Positions 3,063-13,165 of a stretch of 24,972 bases of DNA are shown here, piece by piece. This DNA is from a virus. A program made the position numbers and the translations under genes. A model generated the notes under the pieces. The model did not search any database. It was given only the letters and a program-made list of their open reading frames with translations, and was not told the DNA's origin. Where the stretch lies: IMG/VR virus record IMGVR_UViG_3300020174_000066, positions 1 through 24,972 of that record, one strand, 5' to 3'. Numbering within the stretch: the stretch's first letter is position 1; each line of letters starts with the position of its first letter.

Positions 3063-3260
3063 TCAGCGACCGTGCTTCAAGTGGTAATCGATGTGGTCAT
3101 TGAGTCGTTCCCGAGTGTCCTCAGAAACCTCAATAACGCGATCCAACTTCGCAGAGTTCGCGGCGTGATCCCTCGCGTTTTCCTTCTTCAACTGAACAAG
3201 GGTGACAAGGATACCACCGGGTGCCAGCACGGCGAGAAGAATCGTCAGCCAAACTGGCAT
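3063..3260 (-). CDS. Small single-span membrane protein with coiled coil (second holin or spanin-like candidate)
   Basis: The product is 65 residues. Residues 2-22 form one hydrophobic membrane segment (start MPVWLTILLAVLAPGG). It is followed by a highly charged helix with heptad-like spacing (LKKEN...AKLDRVIEV..DTRERLNDH) and a His-rich end (HIDYHLKHGR). This topology is common among small lysis-cassette membrane proteins of actinophages. It lies directly downstream of a holin-like gene and the endolysin, so a lysis role (accessory holin, antiholin or membrane anchor) is a reasonable inference from position. There is no lipobox. Confidence 0.65.
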   Translation of the reverse strand: MPVWLTILLAVLAPGGILVTLVQLKKENARDHAANSAKLDRVIEVSEDTRERLNDHIDYHLKHGR

Positions 3261-3267
3261 CGGAGAT

Positions 3268-3486
3268 TCACTTTTCTCCGAAAGCCTGTTCGATTTCTTC
3301 GATCGTCAGGTCGCCGTCACGGTATGACTGGGCGAGAGCCTGGACGACTCCGAGGACAGCGACCGCGCCGGACATGACAGCAGCCTTCCACAGTTCCACG
3401 TCGAGGGCGATGCCAACAGCACCGTTCGGGATGCAAGCTGCAACAAAGGTGGCGGCGAGACGGGCAACAATTTTGGTGGGGTTCAT
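3268..3486 (-). CDS. Holin-like membrane protein
   Basis: The product is 72 residues. Residues 5-28 form one moderately hydrophobic stretch (Ala/Val-rich with a Gly). Residues 32-54 form a second (ELWKAAVMSGAVAVLGVVQAL), and an acidic tail follows (LTIEEIEQAFGEK). Two short membrane spans, small size and position directly after the endolysin match phage holins, which form membrane lesions that let the endolysin reach peptidoglycan. The start at 3486 has TAGGAG six bases upstream. A spacing of only 8 bases after the endolysin stop implies co-transcription. I infer holin from context and topology, not from a diagnostic motif. Confidence 0.7.
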   Translation of the reverse strand: MNPTKIVARLAATFVAACIPNGAVGIALDVELWKAAVMSGAVAVLGVVQALAQSYRDGDLTIEEIEQAFGEK

Positions 3487-3494
3487 GGCAGCTC

Positions 3495-4355
3495 CTACGC
3501 GGTCGCTTGGATGTCGATGATGATGTCGGCTTTACCTGACGAGTACACCTTGATGTGGCCGTTCTCGACAGGGACAAGCGACGTGTTGGCAATCGGGGCA
3601 TCAACATAGTTGACGTTGCTGACGTTCGGCATGTCGCCGGCGTCCCACACGGTGACGAACCCTGGCTCGTAGGGGACGACGGTGATGTTGACGAACGCGG
3701 CAGACACATCAGCGACCCGTACGTCACGGGTTTCTCCGGCTTTGAATGGCCCGCCTTTGGAACGGGAGTCGAACAGTCGGGCAGGCTTGACGAGACGCAT
3801 GTCGAGATCCTTCGTGATGTGTGTGATCGGGTCGGGGGTGAAGTTGTTGGGGGGTTCCGGCGGGTTCCATACTTCTAGGACTTGGCCGGAGTAACGGGAA
3901 CGTGATTTGGGGAGTTCGACTGGTTGGAAGTGCCACGGCTCGGAGTTGACGTTGGCGAAATGCAGCAAGTCGAATCGGTGTGCGTTGGCGTTCGCCCAGT
4001 TGAGGTCGCCGACGAGGTCAGCGGCGTAACACCAGCCTTCGCTGTCGGTCGGTTCATGGTAGGAGCGGCCAGGAGGCGCAGCGGATGCGACACCGCGTTT
4101 CTTTGTCCACCGTTTGCCGTCCCAGCGGGTGCGTCCGTTCGGGTCTTGAACGTACCGTGACAGGAACATTGCTTTCTGGCGTTCGGTGGAGCGGTAGCCA
4201 CCTCCGATACCAACATCGACACCTTCTTCGCGTGCTGTGACGAACAGGGCGTGGAGTCTACGCCGGAACTCTGGGTGCAGTTTGTTCCATTTGGTGCGTT
4301 GTTCCATTTCTGCAAGGGTGAGACGCACCTTGCCATACCCGTATGCGAACTCCAC
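3495..4355 (-). CDS. Endolysin: M15 (VanY-type) peptidase with actinobacterial C-terminal domain
   Basis: The product is 286 residues. Residues about 5-145 are a D,D/L,D-carboxypeptidase-like domain. GGYRS (52-56) with Q60 and M63 is the substrate-side motif. SYH (98-100) supplies one zinc-binding His, D113 in YAADL is the likely second ligand, and EPWHF (139-143) contributes the general base Glu139 and the third ligand His142. It should cut peptidoglycan peptide stems at lysis. Residues about 186-284 form a separate beta-rich domain with LFDSR, VNITVV, GFVTVWDAG and SNVNY motifs, the pattern of a domain repeated in secreted actinobacterial proteins, probably for cell-surface binding. The GTG start lies two bases after the previous stop with GGAAGG upstream. 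The His-to-Asp spacing is longer than the usual HxxGxAxD. No signal peptide, so export needs the holin. Confidence 0.85.
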   Translation of the reverse strand: MEFAYGYGKVRLTLAEMEQRTKWNKLHPEFRRRLHALFVTAREEGVDVGIGGGYRSTERQKAMFLSRYVQDPNGRTRWDGKRWTKKRGVASAAPPGRSYHEPTDSEGWCYAADLVGDLNWANANAHRFDLLHFANVNSEPWHFQPVELPKSRSRYSGQVLEVWNPPEPPNNFTPDPITHITKDLDMRLVKPARLFDSRSKGGPFKAGETRDVRVADVSAAFVNITVVPYEPGFVTVWDAGDMPNVSNVNYVDAPIANTSLVPVENGHIKVYSSGKADIIIDIQATA

Positions 4356-4357
4356 GG

Positions 4358-6103
4358 TCAGCCTTCCAGTTCGGCGATGCGTGCTTGCAGGCTGTCAACC
4401 TTCGCGGACAGTTCTTGGATCGCAGCGACAGCAGACGACAGGATCGCTACTGGGTCGATGCCGGGTACACCGTCGTGGTCGGTGACAGCGAGAGGGATCG
4501 CCGCGTCAACTTCTTCAGCTATGAAACCGATGCGCTGCCGGTCAGGGTCGTCGTTGTAACGGAACGTGACCGACCGCAGCATGTTGACGAGGTCTAACGC
4601 GCCGTCGTCCAAAGTAACGATGTCATGCTTCACAGTTTCGGAACTAATCGAAGACAATGATCCGCTGTAGTACACGTCATGGACGTAAATGTCGGCGTAC
4701 GCCAAACCTGCACCGCTGCCGGTAGGCCCGGTCACGTTCAACGCTGCCCACGAACCGCCGGTAGACCCGGCACGCAACTGGACGGTGCTTGTCGCGGAGT
4801 TGCTTGTACGAAGAGCGATACCTGCACCACCGCCAGGGTTCACGACGAGCTGACATGTGGAATAGTCGGCACCGATAGCGTTCTCGGTGAGAGTCAATTT
4901 GCCTGACTTCGACTGGTCTGTGCTGCCGGTCACCAAAATGCTGCTGGTGTCAACCTTTGCCGAAGTGATTGTCGAATCAGCGATATGCGCGTTGTCAATC
5001 GATCCGTCAACGTAATGCTCAGAGTTGATCGAGTTGTCATCAATCTTGTCGCCATTGACAATGTCGGCTGCGAGATGCTCCCGGTCGATTGAGCCGTCAA
5101 CGTAATGACCGGAGTCAATCGAATTGCTAGCGATGTGGCCGCCGTCGATTGTGCCGAACGCTAAGTTGCCTGTCCCGTCCCTTCGCAGGACGTGGTTCGC
5201 ACCCGCAACAATTTCTGATAGATCACCAGCCGTCCCACCGACACGCGCCAACACGGTATGTCCAGCAGCGTTTTCAAGTTTCGCATAAGTAACCGCATTG
5301 TCAGCGATTTTGCTTGTGCCGACCGCGCCAGTACCAATCTCGTCGCTACCGACCGCGCCAGCAGCGATCTGTGCGGCTCCGACAGCGTTGTCGGCGATCT
5401 TGGCGTCTGTCACAGCGTCGGTAGCCAACTCGGTGGTATCAACCGCGCCGGCAGCGATCTTCGCGTTCGTGACAGCGTCATCAGCGATCTTCGCGGTCGT
5501 GACCGCGTCAGCAGCTAGTTCCGCTGTGTCAACAGAACCATCAACGATGTGTGTTGCCGCGACCGAGTTTGATGCAAGCTCAGAACCCGTCACCGAGTCG
5601 GCAGCGATCTTGTCGGCGGTGACCGCGTTCGTAGCGATCTGAGCGGTGTCAACCTGCGCCCACGCCAAACCGCCAGACGCAGCAGAATCGGCAGTTAGGA
5701 CGTATCCGTCGGTGCCGACAGCGAGACGTTCAAACGTGGACGCGCCGTGCGTGACAATGTCGCCCTTCGTTGTCCACGTCGAGGACAGTTCGTTCGCCTC
5801 ATCAGCGTCGGTAGCTGTGAACACCGGATACACCGTTGAACCGTCAGCATGAGTCACATCTGTCGTGCCGTCCGCGCCACGCGAACCTGACACCGATAAC
5901 GTCAAATCACCCGAGTTCGCACGGGTAACCAGAATCTTTTCCTCGTTTGCCGTACCAGGCTCAACAACAATGAAGAACGGGTTCGCACCGTACGGCCAGC
6001 CGGTAGCAGCAGCGACTGAGAACGAGGTAGCACCGGCAGCGAACGCGCCGTTCAACGTCGTTGACGCGCCTGCGCCTTCATATGCTCTGCGGGTCTTAGC
6101 CAT
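4358..6103 (-). CDS. Tail fibre with decapeptide repeats and peptidase S74 chaperone
   Basis: The product is 581 residues. Residues about 12-95 form a beta domain also seen in the upstream adaptor-like protein (ATS near the start; RG..GTT..TH..G near the end). Residues 151-280 and 319-388 are in-register 10-residue repeats of the type VTxAKIADxA. A short beta region follows (390-480). The end is an intramolecular chaperone of the peptidase S74 family: Ser487 and Lys492 in SSETVKHDI form the expected Ser/Lys dyad, then RIGFIAEEVDAAIP (524-537) and a C-terminal coiled coil (555-580). In this family the C-terminus trimerises the fibre and then cuts itself off before the serine, which would release about 95 residues. 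The ATG lies three bases after the previous stop. The likely role is receptor binding or a side fibre. Confidence 0.88.
   Translation of the reverse strand: MAKTRRAYEGAGASTTLNGAFAAGATSFSVAAATGWPYGANPFFIVVEPGTANEEKILVTRANSGDLTLSVSGSRGADGTTDVTHADGSTVYPVFTATDADEANELSSTWTTKGDIVTHGASTFERLAVGTDGYVLTADSAASGGLAWAQVDTAQIATNAVTADKIAADSVTGSELASNSVAATHIVDGSVDTAELAADAVTTAKIADDAVTNAKIAAGAVDTTELATDAVTDAKIADNAVGAAQIAAGAVGSDEIGTGAVGTSKIADNAVTYAKLENAAGHTVLARVGGTAGDLSEIVAGANHVLRRDGTGNLAFGTIDGGHIASNSIDSGHYVDGSIDREHLAADIVNGDKIDDNSINSEHYVDGSIDNAHIADSTITSAKVDTSSILVTGSTDQSKSGKLTLTENAIGADYSTCQLVVNPGGGAGIALRTSNSATSTVQLRAGSTGGSWAALNVTGPTGSGAGLAYADIYVHDVYYSGSLSSISSETVKHDIVTLDDGALDLVNMLRSVTFRYNDDPDRQRIGFIAEEVDAAIPLAVTDHDGVPGIDPVAILSSAVAAIQELSAKVDSLQARIAELEG
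4940..5149 (-). repeat. Decapeptide repeat block 2 in the tail fibre gene (7 units of 30 bp)
   Basis: Residues 319-388 consist of seven 10-residue units with Ile or Val first and a hydrophobic residue at position 6. They run more to the pattern IDxxHYVDGS and differ from block 1 in having His at position 5 in most units. There are no insertions. Confidence 0.85.
5264..5653 (-). repeat. Decapeptide repeat block 1 in the tail fibre gene (13 units of 30 bp)
   Basis: Residues 151-280 are thirteen consecutive 10-residue units. Each has V (or V-like) at position 1, I or L at position 6, mostly A at 7 and A or S at 10, for example VTTAKIADDA then VTNAKIAAGA. Units never gain or lose a residue. Confidence 0.9.
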
Positions 6104-9696: not shown

Positions 9697-9987
9697 TTAG
9701 GTGATGAAGTCGCCGTAGCCTGCTGCTGTCAAAGCTGCTGCTTCGGTGTCGTCAACGGTGTATTGGTGACCACCGTAGTAGGTGATTGCTACATCGGAAA
9801 TGTCGGCAGGGTCGTTCTCGATGTAGGTGCCGTCGGTGAGTTTGTACACGTTGCGGCCTCTTGGGAGGGCGGCGTAGTGACGGAGAAACATGTATGCCTG
9901 TCGGCGTTCCGCTGTCCAAGGTTTGTCCACATCGAAGTCGGAAAGATTGTGGAAATCGTCGGTGGGCGGGGTGAAGGTTGCCATCAT
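9697..9987 (-). CDS. Standalone fibre-module protein (NVYKL-DGT family), 96 aa
   Basis: The product is 96 residues that match the C-terminal 85 residues of the neighbouring 273-aa protein. Shared landmarks are FTPPTDDF against FRPPAEDDF, GRNVYKLTDGTYIENDP against ARNVYKLADGTFTNVDP, a Y-G-G-H or L-G-A-H turn, and a closing EAAALTAAGYG against KAELVAAGYE. I recall this module at the ends of minor tail or fibre proteins of actinophages. It is probably a small structural domain that attaches to fibres. ATG codons at 9987 and 9984 are both possible; the first forms an ATGA overlap with the upstream stop and is chosen. No membrane or signal sequence. Confidence 0.75.
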   Translation of the reverse strand: MMATFTPPTDDFHNLSDFDVDKPWTAERRQAYMFLRHYAALPRGRNVYKLTDGTYIENDPADISDVAITYYGGHQYTVDDTEAAALTAAGYGDFIT

Positions 9988-10805
9988 GTGACCTCGTATC
10001 CTGCTGCGACGAGTTCTGCTTTCTCGTCTTCTGTGACGAAGTGTTCGTGTGCGCCGAGGTACAGTTTGACGACAAGGTTGTCGTTGCGCGGATCGACGTT
10101 GGTGAATGTGCCGTCAGCAAGTTTGTACACGTTGCGTGCCCTGGCTCCTGGTTGGACGAACCCGTAGAAACGGTTTGCTTTGCCTCGACCGAGGTAGGTG
10201 GCGAACGGGAAGTCGTCTTCGGCTGGTGGCCGGAAGATCAAGCTCTTGATCCAGTCGGCGGCGATGTCACCGCCTGTGCCGCTGCCAACCAGATCGGCAA
10301 AAACGATACGCGCCCCAACCGAGGCAGATGTGCCCGTTCCTGTTCCTGTTCCGGCGCGGGGGACGATACGCAGATAGGTCGCGGTGTCCCCGGTGGTTGC
10401 GCCGCCTGACCCATAGCCGGTGCGGAGCTGTTTGTGCAAGATCGCGTTGTTAGAGGTTCCAGCACCTGTGCCTGTGGCGGTGGCGAACGTGATGCGGAGT
10501 TGGCTGGTGGGGCTGTTCCCGCCTGTTCCCGAGCCTGTTCCCGTCGCAAACGTGGTTCTGACAGCGGTTGTTCCGCTGGTTCCCGAGCCGGTTCCCGTCG
10601 CGGTGCGTGGCACGAAACGAAGACCGGCGGCGGTCGAGGTGCCTGCGCCTGCCCCAGTTGCGGTGCGTGCCCGTGTGACAACCGGCGTAGAGCTGCTGTC
10701 GCCTGCACCTGCCCCGCTGGCTGTGCGGGCATGAATTTCTGCGCCGTTGTAGGTGAGGTTCGACGCGCTGTAGGTGAACCCGCTGTCGTTGTACAGGCGG
10801 GCCAT
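9984..10805 (-). CDS. Gly/Thr-repeat fibre-like protein with NVYKL-DGT C-terminal module
   Basis: The product is 273 residues. The first 24 residues are Tyr/Asn-rich. Residues about 25-185 are eight degenerate repeats of about 20 residues built around RTATGxGxGTS followed by a short hydrophobic strand. This fits an elongated glycine-rich beta fibre. Residues 189-273 are the same module as the downstream 96-aa protein, with ARNVYKLADGT at 222-232. No catalytic motif is visible. It probably forms a decoration or short fibre on the tail. The ATG at 10805 has AGGAG seven bases upstream and follows the 44-aa gene by three bases. The downstream partner starts within its stop codon. Confidence 0.7.
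   Translation of the reverse strand: MARLYNDSGFTYSASNLTYNGAEIHARTASGAGAGDSSSTPVVTRARTATGAGAGTSTAAGLRFVPRTATGTGSGTSGTTAVRTTFATGTGSGTGGNSPTSQLRITFATATGTGAGTSNNAILHKQLRTGYGSGGATTGDTATYLRIVPRAGTGTGTGTSASVGARIVFADLVGSGTGGDIAADWIKSLIFRPPAEDDFPFATYLGRGKANRFYGFVQPGARARNVYKLADGTFTNVDPRNDNLVVKLYLGAHEHFVTEDEKAELVAAGYEVT
10251..10733 (-). repeat. Degenerate ~60-bp repeats encoding Gly/Thr fibre units
   Basis: About eight units of roughly 20 codons, each with an RTATGxGxGTS-like core, cover residues 25-185 of the 273-aa protein. On the plus strand this shows as recurring gttcccgagcc-type words. The units vary by one or two residues, unlike the strict decapeptides of the S74 fibre. Confidence 0.75.
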
Positions 10806-10808
10806 TGG

Positions 10809-10943
10809 TTACTCCTGGTCGGGTTCTTCGACAGGGACTTGTTCTTGCAACATCCGAATATGAACTGCCTGAGCGCAGATCGTCAACTCCTTAGGGAACT
10901 GACGTTCAAACTCGTGGATCAAATCCATAGGGTCAATGTTCAC
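10809..10943 (-). CDS. Small acidic helical protein, 44 aa
   Basis: A 44-residue product starting with GTG at 10943, which overlaps the stop of the S74 fibre by 4 nt (GTGA). The sequence begins VNIDPMDLIHEFERQFPKE, continues through a helical ICAQAVHIRMLQEQ segment and ends in an acidic EEPDQE tail. One long amphipathic helix pair is likely. I recall similar P-M-D-L-I-x-E-F-E-x-x-F-P-K-E-L-T proteins beside phage fibre genes; a fibre assembly or trimerisation helper is conceivable but not shown. Gene spacing (3 bases to the next ATG) and an AGGAG at its 3' end for the next gene support it as a real gene in the operon. Confidence 0.7.
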   Translation of the reverse strand: MNIDPMDLIHEFERQFPKELTICAQAVHIRMLQEQVPVEEPDQE

Positions 10944-13165
10944 GCTGCCTCCAAAGCAGATAGCCGTGCATCTATTTCCTGTAGAGCCTTGACCAGCACG
11001 GAAGTCAAAGCCAAACCATCAATCGCCTTATTCTCCCCAGACTTCATGTCGATATCAGTCACCTGCGGAATAACCTCACCGACTTCCTCGGCAACAAGCC
11101 CGATAGTTCCACGTTCCCACTGCCTGTAATAATTGCAGGGTTCTTCAACGCTGCTATCACAATCACGACCACAAATGTGTGTATCGTCGTGATCTGGGTC
11201 ATCTTCGCAAACTTCATTAGCGATACAGTACCTTTGTTTGTCCCAACGGTATGACACGACATTCAACTGGTTCACCAAACTCATCGTTGTCGCATACTCA
11301 GGGTTCGTCATCGAACCAGCAGAAACAGGGACAGGCGGCGACCATTCAACAATGTCCTGTTTCTCATCACGCGAGGACTGGCTGGAAATAATCGCGGCAA
11401 CCGTGTGATACCCGCCGTCGTTGTGGCTGCGAATAAATAAAATTCCAGACGAAGCACGCATCTGAGTTGTATGGGTATCCGAACCGTAAGAGCGGATAGC
11501 AATACCAATATCGTTAGCAGTACCCGCTACCGCCTGAATCGGCTGGGCCGACCAGTCATTAGAACTTGTGTCGTAGTAGAAACGACTTTCGCCGTAGAAG
11601 TCGCAAAAGTTGTTGCCGAACGCCGCACGCATAACGCCGCTAGTACCAATGTACACACGATCATTTGCCCCGTAAATACCTGTGTCTCCGTCAGATGACC
11701 AAGTGATTGGAGGGTCGGTTACCGACCCGTAAGCCAACTGGATTTCATTTCGCACCTGCAACACATCAAAAGATGATGTGCCAGAATCCGAATACAAACG
11801 ACCTGCCACACGAAAACCAGAACTATCTGTGTAAGCCTTAGTTACGTTGTTGTGTTTCAGTTCAACAGAGCCGTTCAGCGTACCGTAAAGCATCCACTCA
11901 TTATTCACATCGTTGTAAATGCCCCAAGCATTGGCACCGTCGTGCATGAAAACGACACGGCCATCAATACTGTAACCCTCCCAGTTGCCCGCGCCAGACC
12001 CATGAGTTTGAACTGTGCCATAACTTCCTGATACTTGACGCAACCCTCTGCTGCCAAGATACAAAAGGCCATCAATAGTCAAATCTCCGCGTACTGTTGA
12101 GCCACCTGCCATGTTGATGTACTTGTAGAAGTAGAAAGCAGGACGGTCAGTTTGAAAATGGCACCACGAGGTGTTCAGCGGACCGAAATCCAGATAGCCG
12201 TATGCGGTTGTCAATCGAAGGTCGTTCTCCGCGCCTGCGTCAGAAAGAATCGGACCGCTGTTGAGTTGCAACGAAGAAGTGTATGCGGCTCCTGTGGATC
12301 GGAACGTACCGTTGACATCTAGCGTGTACGAAGGAGTACTGTCGTTGACACCGACATTGCCCTCAAAGTGATGGTTTCCGAACCCGCTACCCGTCCAGTA
12401 GCCATACCTCATGACATTTGTAGAAGCATCAGCAGCGAGGAACCCGTACTCCGAAACTGTGCCGCCCGTAGATGAAATCCTGATCTGATCGACTGCGTTG
12501 CCTGCCCCAAACAAGTGCAGAGGTGAACTGGGGCTGGTTGTACCGATACCGACATTGCCAGACGAAGTAATCGTTACACGGTCAGTATTGCCTGTCTGAA
12601 AGTGCATATCGTCGCCAGCAACACGAATCTGTCGGTCATAATAGTTACCTGTCGAATCGCTGTCCTTGAACGCAATACCCGCACTAGAATCACCAGACTC
12701 AAACAAAGCCACAACGTTTGTGGACGCATCATAAACGTGCATATTGGTATCGGGTGTCGTTGTACCGATACCGACACTGCCAGACGAGTCAATACGAACC
12801 GCCTCAGAACCACCAGCGTACAACCGCATCTCGTCGCCAACAGCACCAACACGCACCTGTGTGTTGCTGGTAGTTCCGCTGTCAGTAAGTGTGATGTAGG
12901 CGTTCGTTGCGTCTGACCCAAAGTTTGCGACAGCACCCGATGACGACTGGACTTCCAAAGTGCGAGCAGGTGTTGTCGTGCCGATACCGACCCGCTCGTT
13001 CGCGTCGTCAATGTGCAACGGCGCGCCATCCAACAAGGCAGTCTCAATCGCCTCAACAGCATCATTCACATCCGCATGCTGGGCAGCATGATCCGGCGAC
13101 GCAAGAGTGTCAGCCGAAGTCGGATTCGTAAACGAATCCTGCGAACCAGGGAAATTAGTAGCCAC
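10940..13165 (-). CDS. Tail fibre with VGIGTTTP repeats and Cys-rich peptidase S74 chaperone
   Basis: The product is 741 residues. Residues 1-45 are an attachment-like segment (SADTLASPDHAAQHADVNDAV). VGIGTTTP or VGIGTTSP units recur near residues 59, 131 and 205, with a degenerate one at 271, each followed by a beta strand, typical of fibre shafts. The end is a peptidase S74 chaperone: Ser597 and Lys602 in SSRDEKQDI match the catalytic dyad, VVSYRW follows, then GLVAEEVGEVIP (689-700) and a final coiled coil. Between VVSYRW and GLVAEEV there is an unusual insertion with five cysteines (647, 653, 665, 669, 677) and two histidines (659, 663). Self-cleavage would free about 145 residues. The GTG start is eight bases after the preceding stop with GAGGT upstream. 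It is likely a receptor-binding fibre. Confidence 0.88.
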   Translation of the reverse strand: MATNFPGSQDSFTNPTSADTLASPDHAAQHADVNDAVEAIETALLDGAPLHIDDANERVGIGTTTPARTLEVQSSSGAVANFGSDATNAYITLTDSGTTSNTQVRVGAVGDEMRLYAGGSEAVRIDSSGSVGIGTTTPDTNMHVYDASTNVVALFESGDSSAGIAFKDSDSTGNYYDRQIRVAGDDMHFQTGNTDRVTITSSGNVGIGTTSPSSPLHLFGAGNAVDQIRISSTGGTVSEYGFLAADASTNVMRYGYWTGSGFGNHHFEGNVGVNDSTPSYTLDVNGTFRSTGAAYTSSLQLNSGPILSDAGAENDLRLTTAYGYLDFGPLNTSWCHFQTDRPAFYFYKYINMAGGSTVRGDLTIDGLLYLGSRGLRQVSGSYGTVQTHGSGAGNWEGYSIDGRVVFMHDGANAWGIYNDVNNEWMLYGTLNGSVELKHNNVTKAYTDSSGFRVAGRLYSDSGTSSFDVLQVRNEIQLAYGSVTDPPITWSSDGDTGIYGANDRVYIGTSGVMRAAFGNNFCDFYGESRFYYDTSSNDWSAQPIQAVAGTANDIGIAIRSYGSDTHTTQMRASSGILFIRSHNDGGYHTVAAIISSQSSRDEKQDIVEWSPPVPVSAGSMTNPEYATTMSLVNQLNVVSYRWDKQRYCIANEVCEDDPDHDDTHICGRDCDSSVEEPCNYYRQWERGTIGLVAEEVGEVIPQVTDIDMKSGENKAIDGLALTSVLVKALQEIDARLSALEAA

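Follow-up and report, generated by a model that had tools for sequence, protein, structure and literature searches.

A viral M15 endolysin gene with a conserved internal start and a C-terminal domain that bacterial secreted proteins carry in threes

The window, by which we mean the whole stretch of DNA analysed here, is a virus record of 24,972 bases. An endolysin gene lies on its minus strand, followed by two small genes whose products are candidate membrane proteins of a lysis cassette. The features to which we refer below are as follows.

3495..4355, minus strand: endolysin gene, an ORF read from its translation; GTG start, 286 aa, full-length product of about 32.2 kDa
3927..4283, minus strand: catalytic domain, M15 / VanY-type peptidase (Pfam PF02557), residues 25-143
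3801..3926, minus strand: linker, residues 144-185, mostly of low confidence in the structure model
3495..3800, minus strand: C-terminal domain (residues 186-286), predicted to be made as a free product of 101 aa as well, about 10.8 kDa
3808..3812, minus strand: internal Shine-Dalgarno (SD) sequence, AAGGA, placed seven bases ahead of the internal start codon
3798..3800, minus strand: internal in-frame start codon ATG (Met186)
3268..3486, minus strand: 72-aa candidate membrane/lysis-cassette protein beside the lysin, with hydrophobic stretches seen by inspection
3063..3260, minus strand: 65-aa candidate membrane/lysis-cassette protein with an N-terminal hydrophobic segment; PHROG 32850 (function unknown), E 9.4e-6

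The Pfam VanY model PF02557 matches residues 25-143 of the lysin with an E value of 3.3e-10 and a score of 40.3 bits, the curated cut-off being 25. By inspection, the protein also has the zinc-ligand motifs of family M15, which we take to be the His and Asp of an S-x-H...D motif and the His of an E-P-W-H motif; in the lysin these are His100, Asp113 and, within SEPWH, His142. Judged by its sequence, the VanY part is a D-Ala-D-Ala peptidase of family M15. Among annotated proteins, those nearest to the catalytic domain are for the most part Microbacterium phage lysins, with 27.6-36.5% identity over 35-50% of the protein; this likeness lies in the catalytic domain, and none of the 33 record matches extends into the C-terminal domain of the window lysin. 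In a structure model of the window lysin, linker residues 148-183 have a pLDDT below 50, and the catalytic half is modelled poorly (pLDDT mostly 38-83) and was left uninterpreted.

The capsid protein of the virus is closest to those of Streptomyces phages (45%), as, among named phages, is a protein of the tail region, and the phosphoesterase is closest to those of Clavibacter and Microbacterium phages, with most of the matched records coming from Mycobacterium. Since capsid, tail, phosphoesterase and the catalytic domain of the lysin independently point in the same direction, gene content makes an actinobacterial host likely even when the C-terminal domain of the lysin is set aside. Several other genes merit mention. 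The 72-aa ORF at 3268-3486 matches PHROG 26427, labelled 'nuclease', with an E value of 1.6e-15; that label may be wrong, the product having the appearance of a small membrane protein. Peptidase_S74 chaperone domains form the C-termini of two fibre-like proteins encoded on the minus strand at 4358-6103 (E 1.6e-11) and 10940-13165 (E 0.012, below cut-off), the former directly upstream of the lysin and with long D-A-V-T-x-A-K-I-A repeats. A low-complexity protein with R-T-A-T-G-x-G-x-G-T repeat blocks, possibly a surface or fibre protein, is encoded at 9984-10805, also on the minus strand.

The C-terminal domain of the lysin had been singled out in the initial annotation by the motifs RLFDSR, VNITVV, GFVTVWDAG and SNVNY and described as a domain of secreted actinobacterial proteins fused to an M15 peptidase, at the place where a wall-binding domain is expected. 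All four motifs do lie within residues 186-286, and the fusion is as described, with VanY at residues 25-143 followed by the domain at residues 186-286; residue 186 is encoded at window 3800..3798, which is also where that annotation had set the upper end of the domain. The domain is C-terminal in the lysin, the position expected of a wall-binding domain. Its presence in a lysin is not odd: a whole group of related lysins regularly ends in this module.

As a single sequence the domain matched nothing above chance in Pfam, NCBIfam, PHROGs or the PDB, and on its own it has a credible copy in none of 50,697 annotated phage records. A single-sequence tblastn search of plasmids yielded two Streptomyces matches, weak (E 0.4 and 0.6) though full-length, both of which sit in proteins with three repeats of the domain in a row. 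Matches in plasmids of Lactococcus, Burkholderia and Acetobacter (E 5-9) and in Erwinia phages (E 0.3-1) were dismissed as chance, and six BFVD matches at E <= 0.001 had query TM-scores of at most 0.27 and were uninformative. A six-repeat Streptomyces profile aligned with nearly the whole of the window domain (hhalign probability 97.4, E 1.2e-11, 95 columns), and the domain recurs in 40 IMG/VR loci and 79 bacterial loci. This recurrence, together with the profile match, argues that the domain is more than a chance resemblance.

The 40 viral loci were collected from IMG/VR with a mixed profile; another scan gave 21. In every domain-bearing viral lysin ORF that was read, the domain is present once and is C-terminal; the ORFs of L004 and L052 end at the edge of the contig or stretch. 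Pfam matches to the catalytic parts of 21 lysins, namely 20 with the domain and L032, a related M15 lysin without it, comprise 12 to Amidase_2, three to VanY and one to GH25, and five lysins match no family at 0.001. One lysin without a Pfam match, that of L025, matches an endolysin PHROG. The catalytic halves of L016, L019 and L034 likewise belong to no Pfam family at 0.001, L016 giving only a weak hint of Peptidase_M15_3 (E 0.15), and are joined to the same C-terminal domain, as is the L035 lysin, which is nearly identical to that of L034.

Because unrelated catalytic parts are swapped ahead of one C-terminal module, a role in wall binding is the putative function of that module. The domain could alternatively be a tag for trimerisation or stability, or could bind a secreted host protein and not the wall. 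Its bacterial partner domains include SpoIID (7 of 65) and one M23 peptidase, which fit a role at the wall, and also PKD, fn3, beta-helix, GH18 and M4 peptidase, a mixture that would suit a tag or another ligand; however, wall-binding modules typically do change catalytic partners while keeping the position of the binding domain, as this domain does in lysins with unrelated catalytic domains, and we consider a tag or another ligand highly improbable. We therefore retain wall binding as the putative role.

The phage domains form a group of their own. In an unrooted tree of 132 domains over a short alignment of 116 columns, sampled as 108 domains from 36 bacterial triplet proteins, 21 phage domains and three single bacterial ones, all 21 phage domains fall into one clade with a support of 0.905. 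Capture of the domain from a host, as suggested in the initial annotation, would imply a direction of transfer, which an unrooted tree does not give. When viral sequences were scanned with a bacterial-type profile, no triplet lysin came up, and the scan returned single-copy secreted proteins on three large contigs (L152-L154); in a viral scan that used the Streptomyces profile, none of 45 candidates was confirmed. Origin of the lysins through loss of a stop codon between a lysin gene and a free domain gene was considered, and no free-standing domain gene was found in the loci read.

At the head of the domain, an ATG or GTG stands in frame in all 30 viral lysin ORFs examined, and in each it is preceded, at the spacing of a ribosome-binding site, by a purine-rich sequence of the AAGGA, GAGGA or GGAG-like kind. 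These 30 ORFs are that of the window and those of 29 of the 40 viral loci, 11 near-identical or truncated loci having been left out (L001, L002, L004, L005, L007, L014, L015, L023, L026, L046 and L047). The starts and SD sequences span several unrelated catalytic domains (M15, Amidase_2, GH25 and unassigned ones), and they are retained where the residues of the linker vary. For 23 unique upstream regions the mean anti-SD energy is -6.1, against -3.6 (sd 0.5) after synonymous recoding, with none of 2000 recodings as low. For 12 representatives of 60% nucleotide clusters, a clustering that lessens kinship among the sites without removing it, the energy is -6.4 against -3.7 (sd 0.7), with none of 5000 as low. 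Equally strong SD sequences precede 40 of 171 other in-frame ATG or GTG codons in these genes, so one site alone would prove little. In the window, the RNA around the internal start is weakly folded (-5.5 kcal/mol, the median being -13.6).

It could be argued that the lysin is an ordinary single-chain modular enzyme and that the Met and the purine-rich stretch reflect constraint at the level of the protein, namely a charged end to the linker and a hydrophobic first residue of the domain, and the synonymous p values of the individual ORFs, at 0.06 to 0.42, would allow this. However, the joint test was matched in none of 5000 cases, G at -9 and an ATG or GTG are found at 23 of 23 unique sites despite the varied linkers, and a Val at the head of the domain is always encoded by GTG (4 of 4 unique sites). 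We judge a purely single-chain lysin to be quite unlikely, and regard an internal start at the domain head as well supported by the sequences compared. Given that start and SD are conserved in 30 of 30 ORFs and that codon-shuffled controls did not reach this, the gene most likely makes a full lysin plus a predicted free domain. In a survey of endolysins from phages that infect Gram-positive bacteria, about half have a candidate internal site (PMC9430671).

Bacterial genomes were scanned with a three-sequence alignment, which gave 343 pattern matches, of which 91 were confirmed and 79 loci kept. By record title, 75 of these loci are actinobacterial, three are from Chloroflexi and one is from a 'bacterium'; the first 17 rows all have actinobacterial titles. 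Among sampled genomes, where the counts are lower bounds since a limited number of candidates was scored per genome, the phylum to which an Actinomycetota locus belongs has the domain in at least 20 of 296 genomes, the class of an Acidimicrobiales locus in at least 19 of 100 and the phylum to which a Chloroflexi locus belongs in at least 18 of 201. At such rates the Chloroflexi-titled phylum bears the domain as often as the Actinomycetota one does, and the domain is not specific to Actinobacteria. Hence the proposed homology to a domain of actinobacterial secreted proteins holds but its exclusivity does not; the label 'actinobacterial' suits the best matches but does not cover the family as a whole. 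Four genomes, G002 (the genome of L057), G043, G125 and G200, hold the domain in very high numbers, with 131 matches in one genome of 4.7 Mb and at least 48 in the others, which would amount to tens of triplet surface proteins per cell.

In the bacterial proteins, three copies are the rule. Sixty-nine of the 79 ORFs have three copies, one has six, five have two and one has a single copy, and a further three have three copies and one match of 2-4 bits. Of the six ORFs below three copies, L070 is a triplet split over three frames, L054, L079 and L082 are cut short where their sequences end, and two copies are present in L094 and L114. The last copy ends within five residues of the C-terminus in 67 of the 79 ORFs. 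Nearest neighbours in the tree occupy the same copy position for 71 of 108 domains, which makes an old origin of the triplet probable. Neither in Pfam nor in NCBIfam was an entry found for this tandem-triplet domain, which is homologous to the phage domain and has the same strand order. The two differ in that the bacterial proteins have three copies per chain and rarely a start with an SD where the domain begins (7 of 229 copies), whereas the phage lysins have one copy with a start.

Secreted relatives with a single copy also exist. Two of them, L139 and L153 (3797-4900), carry collagen-like G-x-x repeats, like C1q in reverse order; collagen-like repeats form triple helices. Four other single-copy forms of the bacterial type, L136, L137, L152 and L154, are without collagen repeats, from which it follows that three copies are not obligatory.

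An AlphaFold2 model of one bacterial triplet, based on an alignment of 51 of 62 non-redundant triplets, reached a pLDDT of 96.0 and a pTM of 0.92. In this prediction the copies pack in a fixed arrangement, as one rigid unit and not as loosely strung domains. The phage domain, modelled as a monomer, has the strand order of the bacterial domain with a pLDDT of 90-98. For both, the best solved match is the tip of the Bdellovibrio Bd2133 fibre (8ond, 8ok3), with Z 9.7 for the phage domain and 9.9 for the bacterial one (9.4-9.9 over all comparisons); this tip is a trimeric beta-sandwich (PMC10769870). Identity between Bd2133 and the domain is 8-10%, the tip belongs to a Gram-negative predator, in which it crowns a beta-helical fibre, and the likeness speaks for a shared fold but not for common descent. 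The C1q/TNF-like jelly rolls and engineered single-chain trimers are also three-lobed, and are weak matches in fold. The phage domain gives Z 6.4 with the ten-stranded C1q/TNF jelly roll 1pk6, and the whole triplet gives Z 7.2 and 7.3 with engineered adiponectin and APRIL-BAFF-BAFF (4dou, 4zch) over about 200 of 373 residues. With values below 8 for domain and triplet, membership of this superfamily is not established. The non-trimer PNGase F scores Z 8.3 with as many residues of the triplet aligned, and whole-triplet matches of Z about 7 are within the range of common arrangements. Foldseek matches of the triplet to the PDB were long multi-domain beta proteins with an rmsd of 14-34 A and were not used.

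Based on these observations, we propose a model for the lysin. A single gene would give rise to the full-length M15 peptidase with its C-terminal domain and, from the internal ribosome-binding site and ATG, to free copies of that domain. The domain itself would be a beta-sandwich that acts as a trimer. In bacteria the trimer would be held in one chain, by the three tandem copies at the C-terminus of secreted proteins; in the phage one domain would be carried on the enzyme and two more would be supplied by internal translation. That the bacterial domain is carried in threes suggests that the two phage products join as a trimer. What the sequences themselves show is the fusion, the homology, the conserved start and the threefold repeat in bacteria. 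We infer that the free product is translated and that it assembles with the full-length lysin, one full-length chain to two free ones, into a single peptidase on a three-domain head which would bind the wall with avidity. As an overall explanation of the locus, a two-polypeptide endolysin with a 1:2 trimeric wall-binding head seems to us rather probable.

The two polypeptides might assemble otherwise, as a tetramer (1:3 or 2:2) or as a larger domain ring, for which there are enterococcal, clostridial and streptococcal examples. Stoichiometries of 1:3, 2:2 and 1:5 are given for such endolysins (PMC9430671), and LysIME-EF1 is a tetramer (PMC7098653). However, bacteria have the tandem copies in sets of three, the model of the triplet is a single rigid body and the solved structure closest in fold is trimeric, and we hold these other assemblies to be unlikely. 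Against the cited ratios, the 1:2 assembly that we favour would be new, and searches of the open-access subset of PMC gave neither an account of this domain nor a report of a 1:2 endolysin.

The window lysin closely resembles the Type II iTSS endolysins Lys170, LysIME-EF1, CTP1L, CD27L and LysP7951, which likewise combine one catalytic with one C-terminal binding domain and have an in-frame internal start with a ribosome-binding site between the two, yielding a free binding domain that is here predicted (PMC9430671, PMC7098653). The window lysin has a catalytic part and a C-terminal module, whose binding is putative, and its internal start and ribosome-binding site are conserved in position. 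It differs from these enzymes in that its binding domain belongs to another family, without a Pfam model, that its phage probably infects actinobacteria and that its predicted ratio is 1:2.

On a broader proposal we are evenly balanced, namely that phages of actinobacteria reuse a surface domain which bacteria encode as a natural single-chain trimer, and rebuild the trimer from one copy by internal translation, giving a 1:2 lysin and a previously undescribed trimeric wall-binding fold that is swapped across unrelated catalytic domains. Were this true, the complex would have a predicted mass of 53.8 kDa and the free trimer one of about 32.5 kDa. The analysis delimits a widespread bacterial surface domain that matched no Pfam or NCBIfam model, and the trimer reading would offer a reason why bacteria carry it in threes. 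Few wall-binding domains are, to our knowledge, known for actinobacteria, and this domain is a candidate for such a module. In conclusion, the model predicts how phages of uncultured actinobacteria may hold their lysins on the wall.
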